Below are positions 775 to 34,939 of a DNA stretch of 64,000 nt, piece after piece (position 1 is the first letter of the stretch; each line of letters starts with the position of its first letter). The notes below the pieces were generated by a model. It searched no databases. It saw only the letters and a program-made list of their open reading frames with translations, and was not told the DNA's origin. The stretch comes from Diplolepis rosae. Lineage: Eukaryota; Arthropoda; Insecta; Hymenoptera; Diplolepididae. The DNA lies in assembly GCA_030998225.1 (NCBI GenBank), contig JAPYXD010000742.1, positions 5,022,001 through 5,086,000 of the forward strand, given 5' to 3'. The position numbers and the translations under genes were made by a program.

Positions 775-779
775 GTAAT
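775..779. repeat. Target-site duplication GTAAT, left
   Basis: GTAAT directly precedes the 5' LTR and is repeated directly after the 3' LTR at 18537-18541. Five bases is within the usual range for Ty3/gypsy integrases and fixes both element ends. Confidence 0.9.
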
Positions 780-1062
780 TGTTACGAGCAAACCGTGAAT
801 AAAATATTAAAAATTATAATAAGTTGTAATTTCATAAAAATATTTTATTATTACACAAGCGATGTATTTACGCAAGACTCAAATAAACAATAAATAGTTC
901 ATTCACAGTTCTCGTAACCTGAGCGCTTTTGCACGCTCAGCAGAGGCAGGTAAAGGGGTCGGTTCAAGGACCTAAACATATTAAGAAAACTCAAAATTAA
1001 AATAACAATCTCCATGCAATGGGAAAGATTGTTTATAATAATAAATAAGGTTATAGGTATAT

Positions 1063-1250
1063 ATGTGTATATGTATGATCTATAATATAATATATATTGT
1101 ATATGCTATGCTATATGTATATATATATATATATATATATTATATATGCTATGTCATATTTATATATATGATATATATTATATATGTTGTGTATGTGGTT
1201 TATGTATGTATATATATGTATGTATTGTATACTTTTTTTATATTATTATA
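1063..1250. repeat. TA-rich microsatellite inside the LTR
   Basis: Runs of TATATA and near-TATA words. This is the only place where the two LTRs differ appreciably in length, as expected of slippage. Confidence 0.85.
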
Positions 1251-1649
1251 GATAATATAACATGGGTTATTCATAATAACGCTAACTTGAGCGTTTAGAT
1301 TTGTGTCCATGTTTGAATGTGTGTGCATATATTCACGTGCCAATTATGACAAAAGATATTGGCACCTAAATGTATGCATGTAAATATATAATAAAATTAA
1401 ATTAAGCAGGCATGAAGTCAGAATGGAAGAATGAATTAAAATAATGTAAATGGAATGAATGAAGATTAAGAAAAACGTGGAAGTTTAAAAATTGTAAAGA
1501 ACGATAGAGAAGAGAATGCGAGAAAACAGCGAACGCACGTAGGTAGGATAAATAACGGAGAAAGAAGGAAAAGGAAAACGAAAAGGAAAATGCTCACACA
1601 CACGTAAGCTGGACCCTAGTGGCTGTAAGCGCAGGTATAACCCTTGCGG

Positions 1650-1657
1650 TGACGTCA
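1650..1657. promoter_or_regulatory. CRE-like palindrome TGACGTCA in the LTR
   Basis: Exact 8-bp CREB/ATF-type palindrome, present also at 16897-16904 in the other LTR. It sits in a GC-richer block (1610-1700) of short inverted words such as GTAAGCG and CTTACGC, unlike the AT-rich surroundings. An enhancer role is inferred from the motif only. Confidence 0.4.
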
Positions 1658-3296
1658 TGACACCTTACGCCTGCCGTAAACAGCTTACGCTCGCCTGTAC
1701 GCACCGACTTTGACGGATCCTACGCATGTTAGAGACCACGCGCTAAAATCTTTGACCGCTGGTATCGATGTTATGCATACAATAGTATTACTGAAACCAC
1801 CTCAATCCATTAAATCACTGTTCCTATTATTTATTATACCTAAAGCTTGAGTAGCTGAAAAATTGTCGGCCAGTGAGTAATACATTACCAACAGAATCTG
1901 AACCAACATTTTTCTGAAAATATGAAAAATCGAAAAGGTGTCAGATTCCAAAAAATTCTAAAGGTCAATCTAAAATCCTGATATTGACCTACGACTTGTT
2001 AAAATTCTGGAATAATCCAGAAATTATCATTAACTAATAAAATGCCAAGTCAACAAAAATTCTCACTTGGCAATAGACATGAAGAATTTCAAAACTACCA
2101 AGTATTTAGGTCTTCAATATTTCCAAATTCTTTCTCAGCAAAAATTCCTCTTCACAGAAATCACGCCACATAGAAATATTTCCAAGTCATCACTATTCCC
2201 CACCTGTATGACATCGATACAATTCCATAAAAATCAATCAATTTGAAATCAAAAACGCAGTCTGACGAGCTTCTTACTCCGGGTAAGAACTCTAAAGAGC
2301 AAGACACGGTTCTTTGCATTCGCCCGTCCGCGGTTCGGAACAAGTAAGTCCTATCACCTGGATAGTTGACCTAGATTCGTGAAAAGACCTAGCCAGGGCT
2401 ACAAATTGAGGATTTTACTTGGGCGGACGTAAATACTTCTAAAATCTTTCCTCCGACGAAAGCCGTTCACGGGGTTGTCGCGCTAAAAAATTATATAAGT
2501 AAAATTTTTTTTATCACTACGCTTCTGAAATAATATTTTGAGTGCGTCGGTGGTCAGTTAGCCGCGAGAGTTAACTGTGCGTGTACAGCCTGGCGTTGAA
2601 AAACAAAGTTCCGAAAAATAATCCTGTCGTCGAATCTCAAAACGACGAGAAGATATTTTTCGAAAAGCCACATTAAGGTTATAAACGATTAAAAGTGGAG
2701 AAAGAATACAATTTAAAAGTACTGTTTTCTTTCTGGTTCGAAACCATCCATCTTTTAATTTTTATAAAATTAACAAGGCAAAAGTGTCGAGAATTCGTGT
2801 GTGTGCGTTAATTGCAAACACGTGTAATCGGTGAAAAATGAACAAGAGTGACTAGTTTTAGTCACGCATCACAGAATTTTTAAAAGCCCAGTTGAGTCAG
2901 AAAATCAAGGGTGACATCGAAGACAGCCTTCTTCTCCAACCCTTGTCCTACCAACTGGTAGAGTTAACTACAAATATCGGTAAGCTGTATCGTTCTCAAT
3001 TTATAATATTTTATTTGAATATAGAAGCAAAATCTCCTGATTGAGCCTTTCCGAAATTTAGTAGATATTTTCTTTTCATCGAAATTCTAGCATTTTATAT
3101 TCCTTTCTAGTAGCCGGTAGAGAAAGTAAGGATTCCGAAAACGATCCTACTTAAAAATAAAAAAAAGGGACACAAAAGTGTCCTACAGTTTGTGAAGCCT
3201 CCGCGTACACTTTTTCATCTTTTAAATAAATATTAATTTATTATTTATAATATTTAATTATTTATTTATCCCTACCACCCGTACGTAACAAACTGT

Positions 3297-3314
3297 TGGT
3301 GGCAGCGGTGGGAT
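3297..3314 (+). promoter_or_regulatory. Primer-binding site, tRNA-Leu type
   Basis: TGGTGGCAGCGGTGGGAT starts six bases after the 5' LTR. Its complement, ending CCACCGCTGCCACCA, agrees with my recollection of the 3' end of eukaryotic tRNA-Leu (AAG/UAG group) plus CCA over all 18 bases. Minus-strand synthesis would start here. Confidence 0.8.
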
Positions 3315-3622
3315 ATCGGTCTTTCGCGCTATTCTCCACCGGCTACGTTTACTAGTAACTCTCTGTTACTAGCAAACTATTACTTTTCCAAATTTTCTTG
3401 TAATTTTATTTTCCATCTCAGCTTTAAGAAAAAGAAAAAAATTACAATTTTTCCGAAATTTTAAATTCAATTAGTTCTGACATTTTTCAAGTCTGGAACT
3501 TTAAAAATTTTCTTAAAATTTAAATTCTTCATATATATTGATGTGATATTATAATATAATACATATATTATATTATTGATTATCCAAACTCCTCTACCCT
3601 TAATCTAATCCTGATTAATTCC

Positions 3623-3739
3623 TTAAATTGAGCGAAATAGGTGAACCACCGCGATAATCCCGCAGGGGGTGCCAATTTCGACAGTTTCAATTCTATTCCC
3701 GCGATAGTCCGCCGAAGGGATTGAAACTTCTCAATTTAA
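3623..3739 (+). promoter_or_regulatory. Leader structure A, copy 1 (three-way-junction RNA)
   Basis: Closing helix TTAAATTGAG (3623-3632) with CTCAATTTAA (3730-3739), 10 of 10 paired. Inside are helix P2, CGAAAT (3633-3638) with ATTTCG (3675-3680), and helix P3, GTTTCAAT (3684-3691) with ATTGAAAC (3720-3727). Both hairpin ends carry nearly the same word, GCGATAATCC and GCGATAGTCC. Together this is a Y-shaped RNA with duplicated loop motifs. Copies 2 and 3 preserve the fold with changed bases. Packaging, dimerisation, translation control or protein binding are possible; a DNA-level palindrome role such as an insulator is the alternative. Confidence 0.75.
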
Positions 3740-3780
3740 ATAATCCTTTCTCTCCAAAAATAAATAAAATTGAGTTTTGA

Positions 3781-3817
3781 GAATTCGCTTTTGTGCTCAT
3801 TAGCAGAAAGTTAATTC
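3781..3817 (+). promoter_or_regulatory. Leader hairpin C, copy 1
   Basis: Apical stem TGCT (3794-3797) with AGCA (3802-3805) and a CATT loop; a 2x1 internal loop (TG opposite G); lower stem CTTT (3788-3791) with AAAG (3807-3810); outer GAATT/AATTC. The same architecture recurs three more times in the next 160 bases. Confidence 0.65.
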
Positions 3818-3820
3818 TGA

Positions 3821-3859
3821 AATTCAAGCTCTTGTGCTCTTCAGCAGAGAGACTGAATT
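3821..3859 (+). promoter_or_regulatory. Leader hairpin C, copy 2
   Basis: TGCT (3835-3838) with AGCA (3843-3846) and a CTTC loop; the same 2x1 internal loop; lower stem CTCT (3829-3832) with AGAG (3848-3851), a compensated change relative to copy 1; outer AATT/AATT. Confidence 0.65.
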
Positions 3860-3897
3860 TTAAACTTCAATTTTTATTCCAACTTTTCTTTCATTAA

Positions 3898-3934
3898 GAA
3901 TTTACACTTATGCTCTTTAGCAGAGTGTCAATTC
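3898..3934 (+). promoter_or_regulatory. Leader hairpin C, copy 3
   Basis: TGCT (3911-3914) with AGCA (3919-3922) and a CTTT loop; 2x1 internal loop TA opposite G; lower stem ACACT (3904-3908) with AGTGT (3924-3928), different sequence but fully paired; outer GAATT/AATTC. Confidence 0.65.
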
Positions 3935-3937
3935 TAG

Positions 3938-3976
3938 AATTAAGTCTTTTATGCTCTTTAGCAGAAAGTCTAAATT
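3938..3976 (+). promoter_or_regulatory. Leader hairpin C, copy 4
   Basis: TGCT (3952-3955) with AGCA (3960-3963) and a CTTT loop; 2x1 internal loop TA opposite G; lower stem CTTT (3946-3949) with AAAG (3965-3968), extended by AG/CT after one mismatch; outer AATT/AATT. Confidence 0.65.
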
Positions 3977-4414
3977 TTGAACATCAATTTTATTCCAAAT
4001 TACTTCTCCAAATTATTTTTCGTATGATATACAAGACATATATTATTGATTATTGTTATTTATTAATTTAATTGCATTGATTATATATAATTGTAGATAT
4101 TATTATTATATATAATTATATATGATTATATTGCATTGATTTAATCTAATATTTATTAATTATCAATTGTTTAACATTATTGACATTGTATCAATATAAT
4201 GTATGTTGTAATATAATGTTATAATTCTATTCTTTTTTCCTGGTGATTATTGTTAATTAATTATTGATAAATTAATTCTAATCATTCTGATTAGCCACTT
4301 ATTGACCACCAAACTATCCTAAAGTGATCTGGAGTCCAAATTAAAATTTTGTTGCCTTTTTAATTTTTTTTTCTCTCTAAATTTATACTTCATTTGTCGC
4401 CCATTACATTCTAG

Positions 4415-4496
4415 AATAAAATAAAAGTTAACAAGTCACTCAAGGGTTTGACCTTGAGGATAACTTGTGTGACTAATATTTAACTTTATTTTATTC
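4415..4496 (+). promoter_or_regulatory. Leader hairpin B, copy 1
   Basis: Long hairpin. Outer arms AATAAAATAAAAGTTAA (4415-4431) and TTAACTTTATTTTATT pair with one bulge. Apical stem CTCAAGG (4439-4445) with CCTTGAG (4452-4458) and loop GTTTGA. Middle stem AGTCAC (4434-4439) with GTGACT (4469-4474). ACAAGT (4431-4436) could instead pair with ACTTGT (4463-4468), so two folds compete. Confidence 0.6.
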
Positions 4497-4540
4497 GAAA
4501 TCTATCATTCGATTCTCATTACATGATTCATACTTCCATT

Positions 4541-4625
4541 AAAATAAAATAAAAGCAATGAAGTCACTCAAGGGTTTGACCTTGAGGCTAACTTGTGTGA
4601 CTTAACAATCGGCTTTATTTTATTT
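4541..4625 (+). promoter_or_regulatory. Leader hairpin B, copy 2
   Basis: AAATAAAATAAAAGC arm against GCTTTATTTTATTT; middle stem AAGTCAC (4561-4567) with GTGACTT (4597-4603); apical CTCAAGG (4567-4573) with CCTTGAG (4580-4586), loop GTTTGA. Confidence 0.6.
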
Positions 4626-4662
4626 GCAATTTCCACCCTCCTAGTTTTAGTACCTTATCCTA

Positions 4663-4745
4663 GAATAAAATAAAGGCAATCAAGTCACTGAAGGGTTTGA
4701 CCTTGAGGCTAACTTGTGTGACTTAACATCGACTTTATTTTATTT
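4663..4745 (+). promoter_or_regulatory. Leader hairpin B, copy 3
   Basis: AATAAAATAAAGGC arm against GACTTTATTTTATT; apical stem CTGAAGG (4688-4694) with CCTTGAG (4701-4707) now contains a G-G mismatch; middle AAGTCAC/GTGACTT kept. Least perfect of the three copies. Confidence 0.55.
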
Positions 4746-4901
4746 ACTATTTTAAAAAAAAAATATTTTTATTACTTTTTACTAAAAAAAAAATAATCAG
4801 GTTTTTTCTCTCTTAAAATTTAATCTGTGTGTGAAGATCATGTTACGATTTGACTAACGCATAGAAGAACCACTACCCGAAATCCAATCCTGATAAAATC
4901 C

Positions 4902-5018
4902 TTAAATTGAGCGAAATAGGTGAACCGCCGCGATAATCCCGCAGGGGGTGCCAATTTCGACAGTTTCAATTCTATTCCCGCGATAGTCCGCCGAAGGGAT
5001 TGAAACTTCTCAATTTAA
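4902..5018 (+). promoter_or_regulatory. Leader structure A, copy 2
   Basis: Nearly identical to copy 1. Closing helix 4902-4911 with 5009-5018; P2 CGAAAT (4912-4917) with ATTTCG (4954-4959); P3 GTTTCAAT (4963-4970) with ATTGAAAC (4999-5006). One A-to-G change lies in a loop-proximal position near 4927. Confidence 0.75.
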
Positions 5019-5032
5019 AAAAAATCCATAGT

Positions 5033-5151
5033 AGTGTTTTGTGCAAAATAGGTGAACCACCGCGATAATCCCGCAGGGGGTGCCAATTTTGACAATTTCA
5101 ATTTTATTCCCGCGATAGTCCGCCGAAGGAATTGAAATCACACAAAACACT
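5033..5151 (+). promoter_or_regulatory. Leader structure A, copy 3, with compensatory changes
   Basis: Closing helix is entirely different in sequence but still perfect: AGTGTTTTGTG (5033-5043) with CACAAAACACT (5141-5151), 11 of 11. P2 is CAAAAT (5044-5049) with ATTTTG (5086-5091), a G-C to A-U swap relative to copies 1 and 2. P3 is ATTTCAAT (5095-5102) with ATTGAAAT (5131-5138), again G-C to A-U at the outer pair. The duplicated loop word GCGATARTCC is unchanged. This is the pattern expected when the fold is under selection. Confidence 0.8.
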
Positions 5152-5432
5152 CTAGCAACCCCAATTACACCCTGAGTTAGCTAGGCTAGTAAGGAGTTTG
5201 TGCTTGAGTCTAGCTTTACTAATCTGTCTGCTTTAATTGTGTCGAGATTCAAACCTTGACTGGTTTTCGTCTCGGGACAATTATTTGAACTCGGGTTATT
5301 TCCTTTCTCTTTTATGCGTTTAGGGTAATCAAAAATTTATTTAAAACCCAGTCTGATATACAATTTTCGGTTACATTTCTATTAGTAAGGAAAAGAGAGA
5401 GAAATTTCCTTCGCCTTTTTCCTACTAACTTC

Positions 5433-5945
5433 ATGTCGCATCTACCGGTGGCCATTGACATCTCTCGCCGAAAACGCCCTAGAGGAGGAAGGGACTTGCG
5501 CCAAAGAAAGCAATTCGCAGAATTTCAGGAGCAGGTAACGCAGTCAATTATAAGTGAAAATCCGGACCAAATTCGCGAAATTAAAAATTTCGACGAATTT
5601 TCAAGTCTGTTCGAATCCCTTCTGGAACGAGCAGATAGTATAATTCAGAAGAAAACGTCTAAAAAGGTAGACTCGTTACAGGTTCAGGCCACGTCTCTCA
5701 AATTCAAACAAGTGTACGAACACAAACCTCTAGTTAAAAAACCAGGCCAGAAGCTCTGCGAACCTCAATTTTCAAAACATTCAAATCTAGAATTAGGAGT
5801 ACCTGTCATAGACCTAGCTTCAGAGTCCGAGTCATCCATAATAAACTTATCCTCAGATTCGGAAACAGAAGTACCAAGTGACGCAGAAACAATAGCTTCT
5901 GAGAGCTTAAAGTCTACCGACAGGACCATACTGATTAGTGACTGA
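5433..5945 (+). CDS. Accessory ORF upstream of gag (170 aa) with SUMO-interacting-like motifs
   Basis: I do not recognise the family. The intact ORF begins ATG at 5433, after the leader structures and before gag, where simple errantiviruses have no gene. Residues 12-17 (RRKRPR) form a nuclear-localisation-like basic patch. The middle is polar with a predicted helical stretch (about 25-75). The C-terminus holds two hydrophobic cores followed by Ser/Glu/Asp: VIDL (125-128, then ASESES) and IINL (136-139, then SSDSETE), which fit the SUMO-interacting motif pattern followed by phosphorylatable acidic residues. Inference: a small nuclear protein contacting SUMO or SUMO-modified host factors. It could instead be an N-terminal gag-related or regulatory exon. 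Its integrity contrasts with the broken gag, pol and env. Confidence 0.6.
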   Translation: MSHLPVAIDISRRKRPRGGRDLRQRKQFAEFQEQVTQSIISENPDQIREIKNFDEFSSLFESLLERADSIIQKKTSKKVDSLQVQATSLKFKQVYEHKPLVKKPGQKLCEPQFSKHSNLELGVPVIDLASESESSIINLSSDSETEVPSDAETIASESLKSTDRTILISD

Positions 5946-6462
5946 ATTCTAAGCCACATTTAAAGAAGTAAAAACCTAAAGCCTAACACTAATCTAAGGT
6001 TACAACATTGTTTTCGAAACTCGACTACAAGATTTTGCTTCTCGTTTAAGGTGTGATAGGCGCGCCATATTAGAGTGTGGTACAACCCTGCACAGCTGAG
6101 CCAACAACGGCTCCACGAGTTTCACTTATAATTTATAAATTGCCGTACAATCACCATAGCAATTCCTTCAGGCAAAGCCTTATCAGCACATACGAATAAC
6201 TCAGATGTGTCCCGGAATTGGCATATGCAACCGGTATAAACTCAGGTAAACCACGCGTAACCTGTGCAGGTTGGCAAACCCTCCCTAATATAGCGCCTAA
6301 CTCTATTTTAGAAATTAAGGTATATAACATAAGCTATTGTGTCACATGTCTGTACATATATTTATATATTAAGCGTCACAATATTCCGGGGTGGTCTACG
6401 ATACACGTTGGCCTAAAAACATTTTTTCTCTCCTATATCGATTTTGCTAGCATTACAACAAC
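5946..6462 (+). other. Non-coding spacer between accessory ORF and gag
   Basis: No convincing gene. An 86-codon ORF at 6218-6478 overlaps the gag start and has no recognisable features. The segment holds the first copy of a 16-base repeat, AATATTCCGGGGTGGT (6380-6395). Confidence 0.5.
6380..6395 (+). repeat. 16-base internal repeat, copy 1
   Basis: AATATTCCGGGGTGGT, 67 bases before the gag start. Repeated exactly at 12510-12525 and with one change at 16024-16039. Confidence 0.7.
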
Positions 6463-7814
6463 ATGCCTAGAAACGTAGATCGGAACCCGCCCCAACATGG
6501 GGACGACCACAGTCGAAACAACTTGGATACGGATCCCGAACAGGATACTCAAATACTCTTAAACCAAAGTGTTTCGGATTCATTAACCGGAGACCCTGCG
6601 AATATTCCGACCCCCGCGTCCTATCTCAATTTAAATACGAGCGCGGCAATGGCATCGGTATTGGAGTGTATGACTCTGCAGCAGAGTACATACCATATCC
6701 CCCAATTCGACGGTAAAAATCCGCCCCTAAAAGAATTCTTACAGGATGTCACAAACGGAGCAGTATTTGTAACCGACATTACGGAACCCGGTTTCATCAA
6801 GGCCGTGTTAGCCAAGCTCAAAGGTGTAGCTCGGGAAAGCGTCCGCGACAAAATTTCTCTAGGGTGAAGGACCTAATAGCGCACCTAAAGAAAAGATTCG
6901 CGCCGACGAAAAAGTACCAATGGTACTTCGAATCTATCGTTAACCTCCGGATGAAACAATCGGAAACCGTGAGCGATTATAACGATCGTGTACAAGGCCT
7001 TTTGAGTGGCGCTAGACACGCGATTGAAGAAAAATATACAGGCACGTACGGACCCACCAAAGAAAGCGCCATTATGATGAAGCCAGTGATCGACTGTGCT
7101 TTCGACGCCTTTATTAGGGGCCTACCAGACGATATATCAATTTTTGTCGACACTCGCAATCCAAAAGATCTTAGTGAGGCATTTGAACACGCCCTGCATG
7201 CCGAAGAACGACAGACGTATACTGAGAAAGCAAGAAACGCTGCGTCATCCTATCATATCGCGCGGCCCAGAGAATTTGCGTCAGAGCGTCAACGCTCACC
7301 AAGCCCCTTCTCAAAGCAAATGGAACATACAGAGAAGCAGGTAAAATCCGAGAGGCCAAATTCAAAGGGAAGCACAACTCTGACAATAACAGGACCTAGC
7401 ACTCCAACAAACCAGGCCCCAATGTACACATCCATGTACAGTCAATACCATTTGCCCTACCCTCCTTATCAAACTAATTATCAGTCTCAATATCCTTATT
7501 CCTTTCTTCAATACCCATTAAACTACCCATATCCACCCCACTACCCTTATCCTCCTCATCCCGCCATGATGCAATGTCCACCAGTCGAAAAGGGTCATAA
7601 AGCACCCGGCAACTCGTCGTGGCAAGGGCAAAGCAAGACTCCTCCCAGGTCAGCCTCTCCAGGACCATCAGGAGCTTTAAACTCCCAATCGACTCGTCGC
7701 TCGGACGCTGTGACGAGTCACTCAACTATACAAGAGCGTCCCAAGTTCGTCCACTTCCAGGAGAACTCCGTAGGGTCCTTCGAACGGGACGCAGCCAAGA
7801 AGACTCACCAGTAG
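6463..7814 (+). pseudogene. gag: gag, frameshifted (matrix/capsid-like polyprotein)
   Basis: Two ORFs in different frames form one gag: 6463-6867 (ATG start, 134 codons) and 6864-7814 (316 codons). The join near 6864 is a -1 relation without a slippery heptamer in the right phase, so I read it as a lesion. The first part contains a Ty3/gypsy capsid-like stretch from about 6700. The C-terminal part ends in a tract rich in Tyr and Pro (about 7438-7594) and a basic Ser/Pro region. No CCHC zinc knuckle is seen; errantivirus Gags also lack it. The 3' end overlaps pol and contains the frameshift signal. Particle assembly and RNA packaging are the family role. Confidence 0.8.
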
Positions 7815-8359
7815 TTAAACTAACTGCATCCGAATTCCGAGGTCCTAGGGCTACCTTCCTGGTCGACCCAGGTTCTGACGTGAATCTTGTGAAACTTCAC
7901 GCTTTACGCCTGGATATGATTATCGAACCCCTGAATTCTATCCTTATCACCGGCATAACCAACGATCCTGTGAAAACAATTGGTGCAGTGAAAATCACGA
8001 TTTTTAAGAGTCCTGTAGAATTTCACGTCGTAGGAAACGAACTCCCTATTTCGCCCGATGGGATCTTAGGACGACCATACTTACGGCAGGAGCAAGCACA
8101 AATTTCATTTAGGCATAATACTCTAGTCACCGTATCTAACCCTATCACGCCGATTCCATTTGTCGACGCGGAATCACAGGAAGCCAACAAAGCCCTTAAA
8201 TCGGAAATCAAGCCTTTTGCCAGGATCTTGAAAATCAAAGCAAGAACCAGGCAACCCATTGCGATAGACGTGTCCAATTCGGAAATCCATCAAGGGTGCC
8301 TGCCAAGGATTGATACCCCAGAAGGATTGTACATAGGTGAAGCAGCCGTCACCGCTTAA
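7619..8359 (+). pseudogene. pol: pol: aspartic protease region, ends at an in-frame stop
   Basis: Open in the -1 frame relative to gag; functional entry would be at the slippery site (7682) rather than an independent start. The retropepsin region is recognisable by LVDPGSDVNL (about 7861-7890) and GILGRPYL (about 8062-8085). The usual active-site triad is D-T/S-G; here it reads D-P-G, a substitution expected to impair catalysis unless this lineage tolerates it. TAA at 8357-8359 interrupts the frame, and the same frame continues at once into the RT region. Confidence 0.75.
7676..7741 (+). promoter_or_regulatory. Programmed -1 ribosomal frameshift signal (slippery site plus pseudoknot)
   Basis: The heptamer TTTAAAC at 7676-7682 is in the gag frame as T TTA AAC, a classic slippery site, and a -1 shift lands in the protease frame. 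After an 8-base spacer, stem 1 is GACTCGTCGC (7691-7700) with GTGACGAGTC (7710-7719), 10 bp including one G-U. Its loop contains GGACGCT (7703-7709), complementary to AGCGTCC (7735-7741), 7 bp, giving an H-type pseudoknot with loops of 2 and 15 bases. Position in the gag-pol overlap, phase and spacing all match retroviral frameshift signals. Confidence 0.9.
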
Positions 8360-10306
8360 GATGGCAAGTGTCACGTCCTCGCTATAAACACCACAGAACA
8401 AGACATAGAATTTAATGTCCCACCACAAGAAATCATCCCCTTTGATTTCTGCAGATTCCCTGGTGAAAAATACTCGGAATCGGAGACAGAAGACCTGTCT
8501 GAATATCCTCAGGAACAGCTGGGAGGAGGTAATTCCGATCGCGTGAAGAGAGTGATACAAAGTTTACATGTGTCACACCTGTCGCCTGAAGAAAAGGATT
8601 ATGTATTCGGCTGGGCCGAAGACTATGCTGACATCTTTTACTTAAATGGCGAGAAACTCACCTCCAATCATCTGATCCAGCATCGAATTCCGACCATCGA
8701 TGATAAAATCATCGTTAAGAAACAATACAGGTCACCTCACGAGGCTACTGAGCAAATACATGCCCAGATAGAGAAACAGTATAAAAGTGGCATCTTAGGC
8801 AGCTCTAAGTCTCCCTATAACTCACCACTTTTGATCGTCCCTAAAAAACTCGATGCATCCGGCGAAAGAAAGTGGAGGGTTGTAATCGACTTCCGAGCCC
8901 TCAATGAAAAAGTAATAGGAGATGCCTATCCACTGCCCAACATTTCAGACATCTTCGACCAGCTTGGAAATGCCCAGTACTTCTCGGTGTTCGACCTGGC
9001 AAGCGGTTTCCACCAAATTGAGACACACCCTGAAGACCGAGCAAAAACCGCTTTCTCATCACCTAGAGGACACTTTGAATACCTTCGTGTGCCCATGGGG
9101 GTCAAGAACGCACCGGCTACCTTTCAGCGCCTTATGGATACGGTGTTAAAAGGCATGCATGGAACAGAGGTATTCGTCTATTTGGATGATATTGTGGTAT
9201 ATGCAGAAAATCTCGAAGAACATGATAAAAAGACAAGAAGACTTTTTGATCGTCTTCGGAGTGCTAATCTGAAACTGCAACCAGACAAGTGCGACTTTTT
9301 ACGAACGGAAGTCGCCTACCTAGGGCACATCATCGGGCGTGAAGGGGTAAAACCGAACCCGGCTAAAATTAACGCCATTAGGAAATTTCCTAGACCCACT
9401 ATCGTGCGAGCAATCCGACAGTTCCTGGGGCTCTCTGGGTACTACCGAAGATTCATCCAAGATTACGCGGAATTGGCAAAACCACTCTCCGACCTTCTCA
9501 AAAAGGACGTAAAATGGGAATGGGGAAACAGCCAAAAGAGAAGCTTCAGAAGACTTCGCAGGTATCTCTGTAGGGAGCCTATTCTCTTATACCCAGACTT
9601 TCAGAAGACATTCAAACTAACCACGGATGCCTCCGAGCACGCGGTCGGAGCAATATTAACCCAAGAAAAAGACGGACTAGATATGCCCGTGGCATACTTC
9701 TCGAAAACGATGAACACTTGCGAACAAAGGTACCCTGAGGCCGAGAAAGAGTGCCTCGCCGTATTGTACGCGGTAATGAATTTTCGCCCATACCTATACG
9801 GACGAGAATTTATTTTGGCTTGCGACTACGAACCTATCCACTGGATAACCTATGTTGAGAACCCTGGAGCACGTCTCCTACGATGGAGATTACGGCTCCA
9901 GGATTACCAGTATAAGTTCGAGTACAAGCAAGGGAAATTAAACAGGGGCGTTGAGGCTCTTTCTGGAAATCCAGCCGCAGAAACGGATTTGGCAAGCTCA
10001 ACCGAATCCAGTGAAGATTCTGATGACTCTGGCGGAATGAGTCAATCCCATTCCCCGCCCAGGAGGAGATTCAATCCTGAAACTGCCAACTCAAACGGGC
10101 ACATTCCAACTAGAACTCGCAAACAGGTGTTAGTGATCCGCAACAAGGCTGAGGCAGAAATTCAATGCCCAGCACGAGGTCATCCACCATGCAGAGAGGA
10201 CTTGAACATCTCGAATCAGCACCTGGTACTTCCGGTCGAATTCCACCCTCCACAAAACCAAAGACGGCGAAAAGGGAAACTACTGTCGACCGAAAGCCAT
10301 CGGTAA
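8360..10306 (+). pseudogene. pol: pol: reverse transcriptase and RNase H (first)
   Basis: Same frame as the protease segment, separated only by the TAA at 8357. The ORF reported from 8543 starts at a GTG and is not a real start. RT motifs are intact: FSVFDLASGFHQI (motif A, about 8970-9020) and YLDDIVVYAE (motif C, about 9178-9210). Connection and RNase H follow, with TDASEHAVGA (first Asp, about 9620), AEKECLAV (Glu, about 9745) and CDYEPIHWI (Asp, about 9825), so the Ty3/gypsy-type RNase H keeps its main acidic residues. It ends in a low-complexity Ser/Asp/Arg tail and a stop at 10304-10306; pol resumes in the -1 frame. Confidence 0.85.
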
Positions 10307-11268
10307 TAAGAGGCAAGCCCATAGTCACCAGGTCTGCTATATTCAAACCAACTAAATCCAAAACCATTAGCACCATCCTGCCGGAGGAAGGCCGTCAAAC
10401 GGCGAAACGAAGGGGAAGACCACCTAATTCTTCTTCCACGATGCCGAAGGTAAGCTCCGATGAATCCTACGCGCCCCCAGTAGGTCGGATAGGCCCCAGC
10501 CTGAACGAAAGTTGCATCGCGAAACGGCTCTCGCGGCGTCGAGGAACAACGGGACTCCCGAGAACGACCACGAATTTCCATGAATCTTCCTCCGAGTGCG
10601 AACAATCTTCAAGCGATGACAACAGCGAAGATTCAGACCCTCCTGTGTACAGGAAGTCACACAGCCTTCTCCCAAGCCTGGCATTGCGCACAGATGGCGC
10701 GAAGAGCTGTTCTCCACCGAAGAGTGCGCCCCCATGCGTTCGAGCACCGAATCCTTGGTTCCCTCCCCTCCAGGAACCCTATGTAGACGTCTTCGTCGAC
10801 GGCGCCTGCAGCTACAATGGGAGAGGTGAACCCAGGGCTGGCATCGGCGTCTGGTTCGGCCCAGACAACCCATTGAATGTCTCTCGGCCAGCCAGGGGTC
10901 GGCAGACTAATAACGCCGCTGAAATCGAGGCCGCTGTTGAGGCCGCTAAAAGGGCTCAGGAGGCTGGAATAATGAAATTAAGAATTAACACTGACTCCAA
11001 ATATCTAGTCAGCAGTGCGACGGAATGGATCCCAACGTGGGAAAAGAACGACTGGAAAACTGCTGAGAACAAACCTGTTAAAAACCGAAACGAATTTGAG
11101 AAATTAAAAAATGCACTTGAGCCAATCGAGGTCATTTGAAACCATGTCCCAGGGCATAACGGCATTGAAGGCAACGAGGCAGCCGATAGGCTTGCCTGTG
11201 AAGGAATCGAAGGAAGAGCACTGTTTGGTTCTGAATCTGAAGAAGACACTGATAACTCTAGTGGGCCG
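10153..11268 (+). pseudogene. pol: pol: linker with AT-hook-like motif and second, cellular-type RNase H1 domain
   Basis: Frame 1 is open from 10153 (first ATG 10165) and overlaps the end of the RT/RNase H ORF, so a -1 change is needed within 10153-10306; no in-phase slippery heptamer was found. The first 200 codons are basic and Ser-rich and include KRRGRPPN (about 10405-10428), an AT-hook-like core. From about 10780 a complete RNase H1-type domain follows: FVDGACSYNG (Asp), NNAAEIEA (Glu), RINTDSKYL (Asp), EWIPTWEKNDWKT, and, after a TGA at 11137-11139, HVPGHNGIEGNEAADRLA (last Asp). The TGA sits where this family normally has Trp. The domain resembles cellular RNase H1 more than the retroelement RNase H upstream, suggesting capture. 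Frame continues into the integrase segment. Confidence 0.8.
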
Positions 11269-13209
11269 TTGAAGGCAATTGTCGACATTCCGCCCTTGCC
11301 TATAGACAGTGACGAGAACAGTAGTGATGAAGAATTTGATATGGAAACCCTTAAAAAAGATTTACAAAAATCATTCTCTCAATTCGAGAAATCTGTGGGG
11401 AGAAAGGGACTAGACATATCCAACATAAACCCTGACTCACTCTACTGGGATCATGAGGGCATGGACACGAAGAACGTTCCGGTATGTACCCATGTGTCAG
11501 AAGGTGAGGAAGACGAAGAACTATTGGAAAACCTGAAGGCCCTTGACCCCTGTGGGGAGTTCGACGATGACGCTTTTCCCAAAAGGGTTCAGAACTTCTT
11601 AGAACAATATGAAGAAAGGATGTCCGGATCATCTGCCAAACCAGACCAGGCGGAGGAGGCCCTCTCCAACCCACTTCAAAGTCTGGAAGAAGGAAGTGAA
11701 ACTAACGGAAAAGAATCTTGGTCACCTAGGCTTCATCCAAGACATCCCGGTGTGGAAAGGAAAAGCATGGTGAGATTGAAGGAACTCCCTGAGGATATCG
11801 AATCCCCAATAATTGGAAGGCAACCTTCAAGGAGATCATTACTCCCAACTCCAGCTCCGTCTGCAGCCCCAGACGCGAGGTCGACACCATTCTCAATCGC
11901 GAAAGAAGAGGAAGGAACGGATACGAACAAGAGCCCAACAAGAAGAGGCCTGGACCTTAGACCACGGCGACTACAGCGTTCGGAGACGTCCGAAACGACC
12001 ACCGTTGGCTCCACTCCATTTTCTAGCTCTTTAATCGATGTTGATATTCCTTATATCGATCCACCGTCACCCCCTTCCTTGGAGGAAAAGCCAGAAGTGC
12101 AAAAACCTATTCTGAATTGCACGGAGGTGCACAACATTAAGCACGAGTGGACAGAACCACTGACTTACCGACCAGACAACTACGCGCATTTTCTTTCTGA
12201 AGATTGCGAGCCCACAAACGCTATTGCAAAGCTGCTCGTGGCCACCGAACGTCTTGACCTCCAAGACGCCTGGGAAAGCCGACCCAAAAAGGGGCAAGTC
12301 CTGGTCACTTCGCACGGACAACACAAGACCGACTCGATCGTAGTGAAGAAACGACACTTTGATGAAATTAACTGGAAGGATGTGACTCAGGGGCTGAAAA
12401 ATCTCCAGCTGGCCCTTAAACGGGACAAGCAAACAACACTGCGAATGGCAAATTCAGGAGACCTCCTGGGCTCCTTGCCTCAGAATAAAATGACAGACAT
12501 TCTGTCTGAAATATTCCGGGGTGGTGACATAACTGTCACACTTTGCCACGGGAAGATTCAGGTTCCACCTCCTGAAATGAGGCCCAAGATAATCGAAGAA
12601 TACCACAGCAGCCTCATAGGAGGCCACAAGGGAATAACCAAAACCTACAGGAGAATTAGGGAGCGGTACACCTGGCCCGGGCTGAGAGATCAAATCACGG
12701 AATTTATTCGAGGTTGTAAGAGCTGTTTTGAACAAAAACTCGTGCGAGCTCGAACCCGGGAACCCATGCTCATCACCGACACTCCGGCCGAACCGTTCGA
12801 CAAGGTGTCTCTCGATACAGTCGGTAAATTACCAACTACCCCTAACGGAAATCGCCACATTCTCACGATGCAGGACAACTTCAGCAAGTACTGCATCGCG
12901 GTCCCTATACCAAACCTCAAGACCACCACCATCGCACACGCCGTCGCGACGACCCTCTTTTCGCAATATGGCGCTCCTAGAGCCATACTTATGGACAGAG
13001 GAGGAAGTTTTGTAAGCAAACTCATGAGGAAATTGGAATGGCTGTTCAATATCAAACAGCTGACGACTTCAGGCTATCGACCTCAGACCAATGGTTCGTT
13101 GGAACGAAGTCATATTGTACTAACGGATTATATCAAACATTACGCGAGCGACTTCGATGACTGGGATCGTCTGCTTCCATTCGCAATGTTCGCCTATAAT
13201 ACCCTATGA
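11269..13209 (+). pseudogene. pol: pol: long acidic linker and integrase (zinc finger and catalytic core)
   Basis: The first about 420 codons (to about 12530) are a Ser/Glu/Pro-rich linker of unknown role, very unusual between RNase H and integrase. Then a HHCC zinc finger (His-His near 12600-12630, CKSC near 12718) and a DDE core follow: SLDTVG, LMDRGG and NGSLERS, with 35 residues between the second Asp and the Glu. The apparent TTG start at 11269 is only where the ORF opens on the track; the frame is continuous with the second RNase H. The ORF ends at a premature TGA (13207-13209) just after AYNT, where the core should continue. Confidence 0.85.
12510..12525 (+). repeat. 16-base internal repeat, copy 2
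   Basis: AATATTCCGGGGTGGT within the pol linker/integrase coding region, identical to 6380-6395. Confidence 0.7.
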
Positions 13210-13579
13210 GCTTGTGTTTGGGCGATTAGCTAGGACCCCCAGCTCCTTCCCCCAGGGCGAGGAACTGGAAACCTACGGCTCCTACTTGCGTGACCTGATA
13301 GTCCGACTATCGGAAATACAGAAAATCGCGGCACGGAATTTGGTCAGGGCCAAACAACGCTCAAAGGAATTCTACGATCGCAAATCTCGACCCTTGAAGG
13401 GTAAAGTAGGTGACCAAGTCTACACAATAAATGAAGTTAGGGAAGGGAAATTCGACAGTAGGAGAGAAGGACCGTTCACTATTGTCGGGTTTACCGAAAA
13501 CAATAACGTAATCCTAGAGGACAAGTTCCGGGAGCGCTGCATGAAGCACGCCGACAAGCTTTTGATCTTTCATGGATGA
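13205..13579 (+). pseudogene. pol: pol: integrase C-terminal part in a shifted frame
   Basis: In frame 2 from about 13205 the protein resumes with PYELVFGRLA, the end of the gypsy integrase core. Related integrases have a further stretch of roughly ten residues between AYNT and PYELVFG that is missing here, so a small deletion with frameshift best explains the break. The C-terminal GPY/F-type module is visible as RREGPFTIVGF (about 13462-13494). The ORF ends at TGA 13577-13579. Confidence 0.8.
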
Positions 13580-13798
13580 AGTATTGGAGGTTTGCTGGTG
13601 TGCATCATAACCAGGCGCTGAGGTTGAGGACATGTCGCCAAGGAGAAATAACTAAAATAAAAATATAATAAATATATACATACATATATGTATTACACCA
13701 ATAAAGGGGACTTCCCCTCGAATCAACCCTGGCGACTTGTGCCCAACTTCCCATACTAGAACTATGACTAACGACAATAAAATTTCACAGGTAACATC
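13580..13798 (+). other. pol-env spacer
   Basis: No ORF of interest; contains a short AT-rich ATACATATAT stretch (about 13670-13695). The 3' part carries the candidate env splice acceptor. Confidence 0.5.
13776..13790 (+). promoter_or_regulatory. Candidate env splice acceptor
   Basis: AAAATTTCACAG ends at 13790, eight bases before the env ATG at 13799. Errantivirus Env is made from a spliced RNA, so an acceptor is expected here. A candidate donor is GTAAGC at 2980-2985 in the LTR. Confidence 0.4.
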
Positions 13799-14098
13799 AT
13801 GGAAACCACCATTCTATTATTATTTCTGGCAGCAAGTGCCATGCTCAAAAGCACCATCAACCAAGGGAGCGAGACCTACCGGATCCTGCCCTTTGAGGCC
13901 AGTACCGGCCTCTACTACGAATACCAGGGCGTAATGAGGCGCAGAGTTTCCACCTGGAGGATCACCAGCTTCCTGGACACTCAGAAGCTATGCCTTGGAT
14001 TGGAGGCGTATAAATCACGGCTAACTGCACTCACCGCAATGTGCCAACCAATGCTGGGAGCTGAATGTCAACACCAGCACACTTGCCCCAGGGGCTAA
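13799..14098 (+). pseudogene. env: env, N-terminal part with signal peptide
   Basis: ATG at 13799 is followed by a hydrophobic leader (METTILLLFLAASAML), typical of a secretory signal. About 84 more codons include several cysteines, as in the small subunit of insect fusion-type Env. The frame ends at TAA 14096-14098 and the remainder is in the -1 frame from about 14065, so env is broken close to the expected cleavage site. Confidence 0.7.
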
Positions 14099-15762
14099 GG
14101 CGACGAAGAATAACCCCAATGCTAGGATTTCTGGGAGGCATCGTCGGCCCCGTCGCTGGCCTTCTCACATACGACGATGGTCAGCAAATCGAGGATGAAA
14201 TTAATAACCTCAACCAGGTGGCTGCTAATCTATCACACCTGGTAGGGAAACAGACTCACGTAGTACGAGCACAATTCGAGGAAATACAAGGACGATTCAA
14301 CATCTACGAAGAACGTCAGAAAGAATTAAAACACCAGCTCACCGAGATCCAGAAAGGCATGTATGAGATGTCTTCTTCTGTATTCAAACTGGAATACTCT
14401 CGGGCACTTTCAAACACGCTTCACGTTCTAGAGGCAGGACTCGATGAGCACCTTCGAGCGGCCGATCGATTGCTAGAAATTATCCATTACGCCCGTCGAG
14501 GACAGTTGCATCCCTCATTGCTGACTACAGAAAAATTGCAACCAATATATCGGGACGTTCAAGATCACGCTCCCGCATTTGCCTTTCCGGTACCAGGGCC
14601 CAAAATAAACGTTGAGGACCTCGCCCAGGCAGCAACTACGACAATTTCCTGCAGGAATAAAACGCTCAGGGTATGCTTGGACGTTCCTCTGCTAGAAAAG
14701 ACCGACTACAATCTGTACGGACTACATTCCGTACTGGTGATCCAATCTATTCTGAAGAATGGTTCGGGAAGAGCATATGTCCGCTCCGAATTTTCTCACT
14801 TAGCTATGGCGGACTCGCAACGGACTTATCTCCTGATGAAGGAAAAGGAAATGGAACCGTGCAAGGAACTAAGAGGATTCTACATGTGTCCTGAGAACCT
14901 ACCAGTACGCGAAACATCTACTTATGCATCCTGTGAGATCTCCCTATTGAACAATCCTACGGCCGAGTCGTTCCGACTATGCGAAGTCCAGGTGACCTAC
15001 AGGAAACGTCCCTTCTTCAAGCTTCTGGAGACTCTAGGCGGCTGGATCTACTCTTTCCTGACGAAAACTGCAGCTGAAATAACTTGTCCAGCCAGAAGGA
15101 CTTCAAAAATACAGCTAAACGGAGTGGGTATCGTGCAGATTGCCCCAGGATGCTACTTGAGGACTAGCGGATTGAGCCTCCCATCACCAGGCTCAAGAAC
15201 ACAGGTTTCTGTGGTTACCTACGAGCCGTACCTCCACCTGAACCTATCCGAGCTATCACCGGTCCTGCTTCAGAACAAGCAACTTTTGACTCTAACCCCA
15301 ACTTCAAAGAAACAGCCTGAAGACAACCCGACTGAAGAAAGCAGGTTTGAAAATACTGACGAGACGTTGAACAAACTTGAAGACCAGCTCAACGAAATCA
15401 GTTCTCAAGAACACAGAAGAACCAAGCAGACCATCCTGACCCACGGCTCCTACGTCGGGATAGGACTCCTCTCCATAGGTTTAATAACCTACTTTGGTCG
15501 CGCCAAACTGATAACGGCAGCGACTAATTGGAGGCCATGCCCAAAACGAAAGGGTAAAGCCGAGGATCAACCAGCTATTCGTTTGGCTGAGGAACCAGCG
15601 GGCAATCAAGCAGCTGATTCCCATTCAGATGAATTCAGAATAGAACAACGATGCACCACCACCACGAATACACCTGCTCCAAAGAACAGGACCGCACCAA
15701 TCAGTACTTCCACATCGAAGGCAGCTACCCGATTACCAGCACAAAGCTTGCAACCAATGTAA
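14065..15762 (+). pseudogene. env: env, fusion subunit (transmembrane part)
   Basis: Frame 1. LRRRRI near 14095-14112 is a furin-like cleavage site, directly followed by a Gly-rich hydrophobic fusion peptide (MLGFLGGIVGPVAGLL) and a heptad-like helical region (about 14180-14480). A second hydrophobic segment near 15449-15500 is the likely membrane anchor, followed by about 80 residues of Pro/Ala/Thr-rich tail. This order matches baculovirus F-like Env of errantiviruses. The ATG at 14065 lies just before the cleavage site and lacks a signal peptide, so it is not a natural start. Confidence 0.8.
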
Positions 15763-16040
15763 AAGGAAGACGGAGGAAAAGTTAGGCTAATTTAAACCCG
15801 AATGTTGGGACGACGACATGTCGATCATAACCATTAATTGTTTTCTTTTTTTTTTCTTTTTAATGTGATACACAAATTGAACTTAATGCTAAGCTAAGAG
15901 GGAAAATTCCATTAATTATGGATTATTATCAACGATTTAGTAATTTTAATTGATGTTAATGGAATGTCAAAATGTTGTGTGAGGCCTTCCTTGAACCACC
16001 CCTGCTCTCGGGGACGAAAGCGCAATATTCCGGTGTGGTT
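15763..16040 (+). other. 3' untranslated segment before the 3' LTR
   Basis: No gene. A purine-rich run AAAAGGAAGACGGAGGAAAA (15761-15780) lies 260 bases before the LTR. The bases directly adjoining the LTR are not purine-rich, unlike a normal polypurine tract; instead the third copy of the 16-base repeat is there. Confidence 0.5.
16024..16039 (+). repeat. 16-base internal repeat, copy 3 (one change), adjoining the 3' LTR
   Basis: AATATTCCGGTGTGGT ends one base before the LTR start at 16041, where a polypurine tract is expected. Confidence 0.7.
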
Positions 16041-16356
16041 TGTTACGAGCAAACCGTGAATAAAATATTAAAAATTATAATAAGTTGTAATTTCATAAAA
16101 ATATTTTATTATTACCCAAGCGAAGTATTTACGCAAGACTCAAATAAACAATTAATAGTTCATTCACAGTTCTCGTAACCTGAGCGCTTTTGCACGCTCA
16201 GCAGAGGCAGGTAAAGGGGTCGGTTCAAGGACCTAAACATATTAAGAAAACTCAAAATTAAAATAACAATCTCCATGCAATGGGAAAGATTGTTTATAAT
16301 AATAAATAAGGTTATAGGTATATATGTGTATATGTATGATCTATAATATAATATAT

Positions 16357-16394
<38 letters not shown>

Positions 16395-18536
16395 GCTATG
16401 TCATATTTATATATATGATATATATTATATATGTTGTGTATGTGGTTTATGTATGTATATATATGTATGTATTGTATACTTTTTTTATATTATTATAGAT
16501 AATATAACATGGGTTATTCATAATAACGCTAACTTGAGCGTTTAGATTTGTGTCCATGTTTGAATGTGTGTGCATATATTCACGTGCCAATTATGACAAA
16601 AGATATTGGCACCTAAATGTATGCATGTAAATATATAATAAAATTAAATTAAGCAGGCATGAAGTCAGAATGGAAGAATGAATTAAAATAATGTAAATGG
16701 AATGAATGAAGATTAAGAAAAACGTGGAAGTTTAAAAATTGTAAAGAACGATAGAGAAGAGAATGCGAGAAAACAGCGAACGCACGTAGGTAGGATAAAT
16801 AACGGAGAAAGAAGGAAAAGGAAAACGAAAAGGAAAATGCTCACACACACGTAAGCTGGACCCTAGTGGCTGTAAGCGCAGGTATAACCCTTGCGGTGAC
16901 GTCATGACACCTTACGCCTGCCGTAAACAGCTTACGCTCGCCTGTACGCACCGACTTTGACGGATCCTACGCATGTTAGAGACCACGCGCTAAAATCTTT
17001 GACCGCTGGTATCGATGTTATGCATACAATAGTATTACTGACACCACCTCAATCCATTAAATCACTGTTCCTATTATTTATTATACCTAAAGCTTGAGTA
17101 GCTGAAAAATTGTCGGCCAGTGAGTAATACATTACCAACAGAATCTGAACCAACATTTTTCTGAAAATATGAAAAATCGAAAAGGTGTCAGATTCCAAAA
17201 AATTCTAAAGGTCAATCTAAAATCCTGATATTGACCTACGACTTGTTAAAATTCTGGAATAATCCAGAAATTATCATTAACTAATAAAATGCCAAGTCAA
17301 CAAAAATTCTCACTTGGCAATAGACATGAAGAATTTCAAAACTACCAAGTATTTAGGTCTTCAATATTTCCAAATTCTTTCTCAGCAAAAATTCCTCTTC
17401 ACAGAAATCACGCCACATAGAAATATTTCCAAGTCATCACTATTCCCCACCTGTATGACATCGATACAATTCCATAAAAATCAATCAATTTGAAATCAAA
17501 AACGCAGTCTGACGAGCTTCTTACTCCGGGTAAGAACTCTAAAGAGCAAGACACGGTTCTTTGCATTCGCCCGTCCGCGGTTCGGAACAAGTAAGTCCTA
17601 TCACCTGGATAGATGACCTAGATTCGTGAAAAGACCTAGCCAGGGCTACAAATTGAGGATTTTACTTGGGCGGACGTAAATACTTCTAAAATCTTTCCTC
17701 CGACGAAAGCCGTTCACGGGGTTGTCGCGCTAAAAAATTATATAAGTAAAATTTTTTTATCACTACGCTTCTGAAATAATATTTTGAGTGCGTCAGTGGT
17801 CAGTTAGCCGCGAGAGTTAATTGTGCGTGTACAGCCTGGCGTTGAAAAACAAAGTTCCGAAAAATAATCCTGTCGTCGAATCTCAAAACGACGAGAAGAT
17901 ATTTTTCGAGAAGCCACATTAAGGTTATAAACGATTAAAAGTGGAGAAAGAATACAATTTAAAAGTACTGTTTTCTTTCTGGTTCGAAACCATCCATCTT
18001 TTAATTTTTATAAAATTAACAAGGCAAAAGTGTCGAGAATTCGTGTGTGTGCGTTAATTGCAAACACGTGTAATCGGTGAAAAATGAACAAGAGTGACTA
18101 GTTTTAGTCACGCATCACAGAATTTTTAAAAGCCCAGTTGAGTCAGAAAATCAAGGGTGACATCGAAGACAGCCTTCTTCTCCAACCCTTGTCCTACCAA
18201 CTGGTAGAGTTAACTACAAATATCGGTAAGCTGTATCGTTCTCAATTTATAATATTTTATTTGAATATAGAAGCAAAATCTCCTGATTGAGCCTTTCCGA
18301 AATTTAGTAGATATTTTCTTTTCATCGAAATTCTAGCATTTTATATTCCTTTCTAGTAGCCGGTAGAGAAAGTAAGGATTCCGAAAACGATCCTACTTAA
18401 AAATAAAAAAAAGGGACACAAAAGTGTCCTACAGTTTGTGAAGCCTCCGCGTACACTTTTTCATCTTTTAAATAAATATTAATTTATTATTTATAATATT
18501 TAATTATTTATTTATCCCTACCACCCGTACGTAACA
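16041..18536 (+). repeat. 3' LTR (2,496 bp)
   Basis: Starts TGTTACGAGC, ends GTAACA. About eight substitutions and two indels relative to the 5' LTR. The TA tract near 16363-16388 is simplified compared with the 5' copy. Carries the same CRE palindrome (16897-16904). Confidence 0.95.
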
Positions 18537-18541
18537 GTAAT
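18537..18541. repeat. Target-site duplication GTAAT, right
   Basis: Matches 775-779. Confidence 0.9.
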
Positions 18542-27330: not shown

Positions 27331-28516
27331 ACGTGTTAGATAGGCGTAGTTCAGTTTCGCGATACCTTTCTTTACATTAAAAGCACAATTTTTTTTACAT
27401 TTTTTTGGAAAACTAGTATGTTATACTAGAGATTATAAGGAATCGCATGCCATCATAAAAAACACGTGTACTGGCACTACTTTTAAAGATATACGTTGTT
27501 GAAACTCGCAGTTGCACAAATTCTTAGCCGGCTTTCTGAAGCAAATATTGTGAGAGCTTTGTTTTTACGAGCAGCTGATTTTTGTGAAATAAAAAATCCA
27601 TTTTTGTTGAGAAATTTATTAGACATCTTATTAGTATTTACAAACTGTCAATAAACTCATAATATAATCTCTCTCACACCATATGCTTTCGACCCGATAT
27701 GAGAAAGACAGGAAAGCGGTGTTGCCAAATCGCACAAATCGACGCAGAAGACACATTTTGTTACTTTTGCGCATAAACGGTGCTCAACTCATTCGGTTAG
27801 AAAGCTTAACAGTAATCCCACTGCCTATGATAGAGTAGGATGAGCACATCTACGGGCAAGAGAACGTCCTTAATATAATTTAAAAGTTCGACACTTATTT
27901 AGAAATTATTTTTTATTCGTAATTGTAATTCTTAATTAATCATCATGACATAACTTTTGTTTACATTATATTGTCAAGCTGTCAAATTTGACATTCCTAG
28001 CCTTAAAAGTCTTTGAAAAGAATTTTTGGCTCTGCTTTATCCAAACGTTATCGACATTTCTTTGCTGGCTTTCATTTGGCTTGGTTGTACGATGAGGGCA
28101 GCACTTCGATATGGCGGAAAAAGTGGTTAGCTATATATATCGTTCGATAAAACTTGACATTTTTCGAAGTTTATTTTTATGAAACCTTCACTATTGCAAT
28201 TCATAGTGTTTGGAAATAAATTTACAATATTATGAGGTTTAATGATACAGAAAATATTGGTGAAGGTATGGTAAAATTCCCTTAAATTCTCTGTAAATTC
28301 TCAAGTTGTCTTAAAATGACGGTCACAGTCACGAGAACCTGACCAGATTTTAAATGTCCGAAAAATTGAGAACTCTACTTATATCTAGTCGCCATGTGTA
28401 AATTCTATCCAAGGCATGGGAGTAGTATAAGGAGACATATCAAAGCCATTGGTCACGTCAATGTTTTCCGAAATAATTCGTGGAGTCGCAAAATAAAACA
28501 ATTCGTCTGGACCAAA
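27331..28516. other. No gene seen
   Basis: AT-rich single-copy-looking sequence; no ORF, RNA gene or element end that I can support. Confidence 0.4.
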
Positions 28517-30187: not shown

Positions 30188-30200
30188 ATTAATAGTTTAT
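30188..30200. repeat. SINE target-site duplication, left
   Basis: ATTAATAGTTTAT, repeated at 30750-30762. Its length is typical of LINE-mediated insertion. Confidence 0.85.
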
Positions 30201-34882: not shown

Positions 34883-34939
34883 TTTTAAGAGCTCATAAGT
34901 TTTTTTGTCCGATAAGATGCGAGTGACTTACAAATGTAT

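Follow-up and report, generated by a model that had tools for sequence, protein, structure and literature searches.

An array of Y-shaped RNAs and repeated hairpins in the leader of an LTR retroelement of Diplolepis rosae, and its possible role in RNA packaging

Among insect retroelements, the nearest functional precedent for the leader described here would be the switch between translation and packaging that reportedly operates through the 5' UTR and Gag of Idefix. In retroviruses, the packaging signal psi lies in the 5' UTR and the start of gag, and structured motifs have been proposed there as Gag sites (PMC12789967). Both the packaging signal and the RNA export signal of gypsy are stated to be unknown in a review, and the 5' UTR of this element carries an insulator with 12 Su(Hw)-binding repeats (PMC4276936). 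A tandem repeat of 151 bp, present in one to four copies, occurs in the 5' UTR of rover (PMC12992720), and redundant 5' UTR stem-loops constitute the retroviral PCE (PMC2657110). A report on a gypsy piece affecting a locust lncRNA describes no leader structure in its accessible text (PMC8786324).

The element analysed here is Metaviridae-like, gypsy being of the same group. Its leader resembles retroviral psi in its place in the genomic RNA, in its structured stem-loops and in the proposed Gag sites (PMC12789967), and differs from it in that modules of three types, in tandem copies, extend across 1.5 kb. With the gypsy insulator it shares the presence of repeats in a transcribed leader (PMC4276936); however, the repeats of the present element are folded modules, and stems vary between two types of Y-shaped RNA (Y). 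The likeness to rover consists in a repeat of variable copy number in the 5' UTR of an insect ERV, that of rover being described without RNA structure in the accessible portion of the report (PMC12992720). As far as a comparison of descriptions goes, the redundant stem-loops recall PCEs, although the listed PCEs belong to vertebrate retroviruses (PMC2657110). A literature search, with subscription journals mostly outside its scope, found no published description of such a leader array. When the leader was compared with Rfam, no family reached its gathering score (the best match, RF01454, gave 22.9 bits against the 75 needed), and a known RNA family was rejected as the identity of the Ys; across the whole window, the only Rfam hit at the gathering cut-off was a tRNA match at 30634. 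Within these searches, the original statement that no leader element of this kind had been described holds.

The window, i.e. the whole stretch of 64,000 nucleotides that was analysed, contains an LTR retroelement of 17.8 kb at 780-18536. Its two LTRs are 2.5 kb each and are 99.1% identical over the stretch aligned by self-BLAST (779-3290 versus 16040-18536). The features of the element are as follows.

775-779 and 18537-18541: target duplication GTAAT (5 bp), flanking the element
780-3290, plus strand: 5' LTR, starting with TGTTACG and ending with CGTAACA
3297-3314, plus strand: primer-binding site (PBS), recognised from sequence
3347-3379, plus strand: simple hairpin, stable (z -5.10)
3623-3739, plus strand: Y1, type A, a closing helix with hairpins P2 and P3
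3780-3979, plus strand: D4 family, four 41-nt hairpins with the tip TGCT-loop-AGCA, between Y1 and Y2
4408-4495, 4536-4623 and 4657-4744, plus strand: D2 family, three long hairpins around AAGGGTTTGACCTTGAGG, between Y1 and Y2
4902-5018, plus strand: Y2, type A
5033-5151, plus strand: Y3, type B, with the closing helix AGTGTTTTGTG/CACAAAACACT
5174-5226, plus strand: hairpin resembling a diverged D2 in sequence
5229-5286, plus strand: stable hairpin before the first ORF (z -5.37)
5433-5945, plus strand: first ORF, 170 aa, without a Pfam match
6464-13579, plus strand: gag, protease region, RT-RNase H, second RNase H and integrase, with frame changes and stops in this copy
13799-15762, plus strand: env, baculovirus-F type, here with a single frame change
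16041-18536, plus strand: 3' LTR, from self-BLAST and reading of its ends

The pol genes follow the Ty3/gypsy-type order RT-RNaseH-IN (PF00078, PF17917/PF17919, then PF17921 and PF00665), and a second RNase H (PF00075) lies at 10783-11208, between the RT-linked RNase H and integrase, which constitutes a dual RNase H arrangement; its final part, past a stop, scores under the Pfam cut-off. Gag gives a weak Pfam match, below the cut-off, and the protease region, which has no Pfam match, was recognised by eye. The env match (PF12259) falls in two pieces, with E values of 1e-28 and 8e-7; an env of this type would point to an insect or some other arthropod as host. Because frame changes or stops break up a number of its genes, the window element is a disrupted copy, and a recent one as judged from LTR identity. 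Errantiviruses have short LTRs, a short target duplication typical of the group and a group-specific primer tRNA. The present element shares with them the pol order and an env related to baculovirus F, but not the LTR and PBS traits: its LTRs are 2.5 kb long with TG..CA ends, its target duplication is 5 bp, and its PBS looks complementary to the 3' end of what we take to be tRNA-Leu. The label errantivirus, applied originally, is thus doubtful in view of the LTRs and the duplication. Viral contigs, searched with the ORFs of RT, env and integrase and with two DNA patterns, yielded no relatives.

For the first ORF, the ratio of amino-acid-changing to silent rates against seven other loci was 0.56, a value that includes post-insertion decay; its acidic stretches VIDL.. 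and IINLSSDSE presumably resemble SUMO-interacting motifs. A separate observation concerns a very stable hairpin at 13532-13620 (-40.6 kcal/mol, z -5.15), which covers the last part of the integrase ORF and the first part of the gap ahead of env and is possibly a signal for env expression.

Three Y repeats of 117-119 nt, at the coordinates given above, lie between the PBS and the first ORF. They had been proposed to share a fold with a closing helix and two internal hairpins, and we found the fold as drawn, with z-scores of -4.53, -5.48 and -4.53 for Y1, Y2 and Y3; in a check suggested at the outset, none of 200 dinucleotide shuffles was as stable as any of the three copies. Folding of the minus strand is weaker (z -3.39, -3.10 and -3.88), and with DNA parameters the same three-way shape is obtained, copies 1 and 2 having a different P3 tip in their minimum-energy folds. 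In a fixed-step scan with 120-nt windows, the mean z of the leader was -1.36 (34 windows, 5 at or below -3), compared with -0.35 to -0.76 elsewhere in the element. The leader thus exceeds the remaining parts only slightly in structure, and the signal resides in the modules and not in the leader as a whole.

All 130 cells in the pairing table of the three window copies are paired, and seven pairs are changed on both sides. Shuffles of this table gave 2.3 such pairs on average, and none of 500 reached either 130 pairing cells or 7 double changes, while the number of further pair types was matched by 7 of 500. When the substitutions between copies 1 and 3 were placed at random, 7 double changes never appeared (the maximum was 5 in 200,000 placements). 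An origin of the Ys as chance inverted repeats was rejected on the basis of the shuffles and this random placement. The closing helix of copy 3 had been called completely different, which was an overstatement: its 10 comparable pairs comprise 5 unchanged pairs and 5 double changes. Hairpins P2 and P3 do show one G-C to A-U double change each in copy 3, as claimed; considered alone, they contain 2 double and no broken pairs. The joint chance of this is about 0.005, and each of the six core substitutions replaces C/G by T/A, so that support from the window outside the closing helix is modest. Copy 3 also loses one marginal pair at the junction (columns 62-107). The tips, described as unchanged, are indeed invariant across the window, but elsewhere they are not: in three of the four Ys of a sister element, L018, the P2 tip differs from that of the window, and a few copies of the family vary at columns 86-88, in the P3 tip.

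More information came from other copies in the host genome (757.7 Mb in 428 contigs). A search with the P2 word, allowing up to 3 mismatches, gave 149 matches, while the reversed control pattern gave 0. From the 100 listed of these 149 matches, 54 stretches outside the window were defined, and all 54 were fetched. A covariance model built from the window Ys and run on them with E up to 1 produced 129 matches, of which 122 scored at least 50 bits and 7, below 21 bits, were set aside; with the three copies of the window, this makes 125 Y copies, 101 of them distinct. Two Y types are present in the 54 leaders, A at positions 1 and 2 and B at position 3, and in 25 loci where three Ys were matched the arms of the closing helices follow the order A, A, B, as in the window (the first Y of L052 and the third Y of L060 are partial copies). 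The PBS was present in 32 of the 54 loci, some stretches stopping short of it, and lies 296-354 nt upstream of the first Y in 28 of these 32. The number of modules differs among the 54 insertions, and apparent Y2/Y3 hybrids, in which unlike closing arms are joined, occur in 6 of them (L023, L034, L039, L044, L053 and L063), while L043 carries an apparent Y1/Y3 hybrid; in most of these seven loci the switch points fall inside the shared P2 core. In a further search, with the DNA of copy 3, 76 matches were obtained, and among the 40 of 145 candidates that were scored no new family was recognised. Four pattern matches in prokaryotic genome contigs were taken as chance, because the covariance model recovered none of them.

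The two types allowed fixed differences to be compared with mutations private to single copies. Of the 122 genome copies, 105 have the ungapped length and were typed, 73 as A and 32 as B; the 17 that differ in length were excluded. A difference was regarded as fixed when it was shared by at least 80% of each type. By this definition 17 columns are fixed, 16 of them paired, and they touch 9 pairs: 7 are changed on both sides, 1 is changed singly with pairing kept (U-G to U-A), and 1, the junction pair 62-107, is broken. Private differences touch 221 pairs, 2 of which are double changes, 71 single changes with pairing kept and 148 broken. Double changes are therefore strongly over-represented among fixed differences (7/9 versus 2/221, p = 2e-10) and broken pairs under-represented (1/9 versus 148/221, p = 0.001), in tests that assume independent pairs and copies, an assumption that related copies and the closing helix may violate. 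When the hybrid copy L023, one of the 32 B copies, was omitted, private differences gave 2 double, 69 kept and 142 broken pairs out of 213 (p = 3e-10 and 0.001). Private changes were about equally frequent in paired and unpaired columns (2.43 and 2.00 per column, column 27, an A/G variant common to 21 copies, being omitted). In this way, one genome serves as its own control, the private mutations of the 105 typed copies separating selected from neutral change in the stems. Window copy 3 itself has a private T at column 72, where the 32 type-B copies elsewhere have C (30) or A (2).

On the other hand, no double changes shared within type A or within type B were found, and variants present in at least three copies of one type keep and break pairs equally often (four of each in A, two of each in B); hence, the evidence for compensation in the Ys comes from the A/B split and from the sister element. 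Five of the seven double changes fall in one helix. Independent change at paired positions, which had been named as an outcome that would argue against a conserved structure, does occur, but it is mostly private, whereas the fixed differences between A and B are mainly compensatory. Together with the folding results, this supports the original view that structure, and not only sequence, is kept in the Ys.

Y sequences are also better preserved than their surroundings. In the 23 loci with spacer identity to the window below 90%, spacers are 86.2% identical to the window (10,496 positions), while the parts of Y outside the 28-nt search word reach 93.6% in the P2/P3 stems, 94.9% in the closing helix and 92.4% at unpaired positions. 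Y was better kept than spacers in all 23 diverged loci, and in 48 of the 53 loci with enough spacer. As all loci were found through the Y word, an upward bias for Y may remain even outside this word.

The original prediction was right about the Ys but missed that they are one of three repeated hairpin families. Of the 29 loci in which Y1 is followed by another Y, 18 contain six D4 hairpins, arranged as three pairs; in the window there are four, the fourth being a hybrid of numbers 4 and 6. In L041, with the register chosen from folds, all 66 cells of the six D4 paralogues pair and 7 of the 11 pairs have changes on both sides; none of 2000 shuffles paired as well, and 47 of 2000 reached 7 double pairs. 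The four D4 hairpins of the window, taken alone, show weak covariation, equalled by 63 of 500 shuffles. Among 78 distinct D4 hairpins, 85.4% of cells pair, which is above every shuffle, and the 10 double pairs represent no excess over slid registers (9 to 11). The leader of L062 contains twelve D4 hairpins, and their spacing looks like that of a repeated 239-nt block. In D2, the inner hairpin is nearly constant among the three copies and covariation is next to none (two consensus pairs with changes on both sides; the covariation term, +0.11, is unfavourable). The D2-like hairpin at 5174-5226 is no more stable than its shuffles (z -1.26, 26 of 200 as stable), and that at 5229-5286 is 96-98% identical between loci.

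Only one sister element, L018, was recognised among the 54 fetched loci. The first ORF of the window finds in this locus only a match of 33 residues at 42% identity, whereas the leader of L018 contains all three module families, Y, D4 and D2, in a different order, with four Ys of types A, B, A and B. Compared with the window, these Ys add four changes on both sides of a pair, two in stems (12-59 and 69-100), one at the end (1-119) and one at the junction (62-107). In the table of seven Y copies from both elements, 10 of 316 cells are unpaired; 6 of these 10 are in the L018 copy at 2226, which is also the carrier of the 12-59 and 69-100 stem changes. The D4 hairpins of L018 add one A-T to G-C change. 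Because the first Y of L018 is 97% identical to window type A and the other three are 85 to 92% identical to the nearest type, it is possible that Ys of the two elements were exchanged by recombination; otherwise, both Y types would predate the split of the two elements. A diverged relative of the first ORF lies behind this sister leader.

Taken together, the comparison of sequences indicates that the modules fold, that Y and D4 paralogues differ by paired substitutions, that Y is better preserved than the spacers, and that the families recur in a sister element. The place of the array, its multiple copies and the paired tips fit a platform for binding a protein that would act on genomic RNA. 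The explanation we place first, while rating it somewhat short of an even chance, is that the leader serves the genomic RNA as a multi-copy signal, packaging being its most likely purpose. The leader of the full-length RNA would then be an array of Ys in two co-existing types, twin D4 hairpins and long D2 hairpins, in which each Y would present two near-identical tips (CCGCGATARTCC) for protein binding and several Y copies would add avidity. The most likely binder of the tips would be the element's own Gag, so that the array would act as psi, marking genomic RNA for packaging and assembly; as a natural extension, the RNA might be switched from being translated to being packaged. Packaging is ranked first because retroviral psi occupies the same place and consists of structured stem-loops (PMC12789967), and the structured RNA seen here does lie between the PBS and gag, as looked for in a psi. 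More tentatively, the leader may be a modular, multi-copy psi or a combined export and packaging platform, selected for structure in at least two element families; similarly tentative is the suggestion that in such a psi the A-B Y pairs and the twin D4 hairpins would each form a two-part putative binding site. If true, this would provide a covariation-supported candidate for the cis signal reported as unknown in gypsy. The RNA modules of the leader are bounded, repeated and supported by comparison, and lend themselves to tests of packaging or export. Against the packaging reading stand the Y hybrids, the variable number of modules, the lack of double changes within types, the unpaired cells of the seven-copy table with L018, the D4 controls, the near-zero covariation of D2, the detection of all loci through a Y word and the recognition of a single sister element.

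Control of translation, in which the array would be an IRES, a shunting structure or a PCE-like helicase platform that makes the ORFs accessible past a long, ATG-rich leader, is a less likely explanation. The gypsy element has two IRES (PMC4276936). Here, 12 ATGs precede the start of the first ORF downstream of the LTR, and the distance from Y3 to this ORF is steady, 389-395 nt in 24 of the 25 non-hybrid loci in which both were found. However, IRES folds are generally compact, whereas the module block varies both in number and in length.

We regard as still less likely a CTE-like signal by which unspliced RNA would be exported from the nucleus or retained there, its repeated loops recruiting an export factor. 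Such a function could make use of the two like tips per Y and of several Ys, and would match the gap in knowledge of gypsy RNA export noted above (PMC4276936); but MPMV has its CTE at the 3' end, where all its mRNAs share it (PMC12789967), and poor scores were obtained for the candidate acceptors whose use would splice the leader out. By position matrices, a donor at 2980 ranks second in 2401-6500, and the acceptors before gag and env rank 105 and 231 of 790 AG sites. The notion that the leader is specific to unspliced RNA through this LTR donor and those acceptors was not counted as evidence for the packaging reading.

An origin by mutation alone appears improbable. According to it, template switching during reverse transcription copies one hairpin arm onto the other, so that paired changes arise without selection, and arrays grow by repeat slippage. 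Template-switching events restore palindromes in general, and repeats clearly recombine in this family, as seen from the hybrids, the copy-number changes and L062 with its 12 hairpins; the concentration of double changes in one helix also suits this explanation. Nevertheless, the other double changes lie outside that helix, as isolated pairs in two more helices, bulges persist, Y is better kept than spacers, and fixed differences favour paired over unpaired columns (16 of 92 versus 1 of 27), a tendency in the same direction that is not significant alone (p = 0.06).

Finally, a DNA-level element, either a cruciform or an insulator like that of gypsy, as had been offered among the original options, is the least probable and now doubtful: the repeats do occupy the same place in the 5' transcribed leader (PMC4276936, PMC7800606) and the Y DNA fold is stable too, but stems change sequence in a matched manner that would be needless for a protein reading duplex DNA, pairs kept as G-U become A-C on the other strand, and a U-G pair is kept in all six D4 paralogues of L041. 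In Y1, Y2 and Y3, standard pairs number 45 of 45, 45 of 45 and 45 of 46 on the plus strand, and 42, 42 and 43 on the minus strand; plus-strand RNA is thus mildly favoured over folded DNA, by a small margin.

Several other features of the window were noticed. Fragments at 53307-53837 are 67-73% identical to the LTR and represent a remnant of a related element. Large inverted repeats at 28513-31094, with arms about 92% identical, enclose the tRNA-like match (30634-30705) and probably constitute a palindromic or tRNA-derived mobile element. On the minus strand, broken ORFs at 33435-35907 have the look of a Penelope-type retroelement, as recognised by eye.
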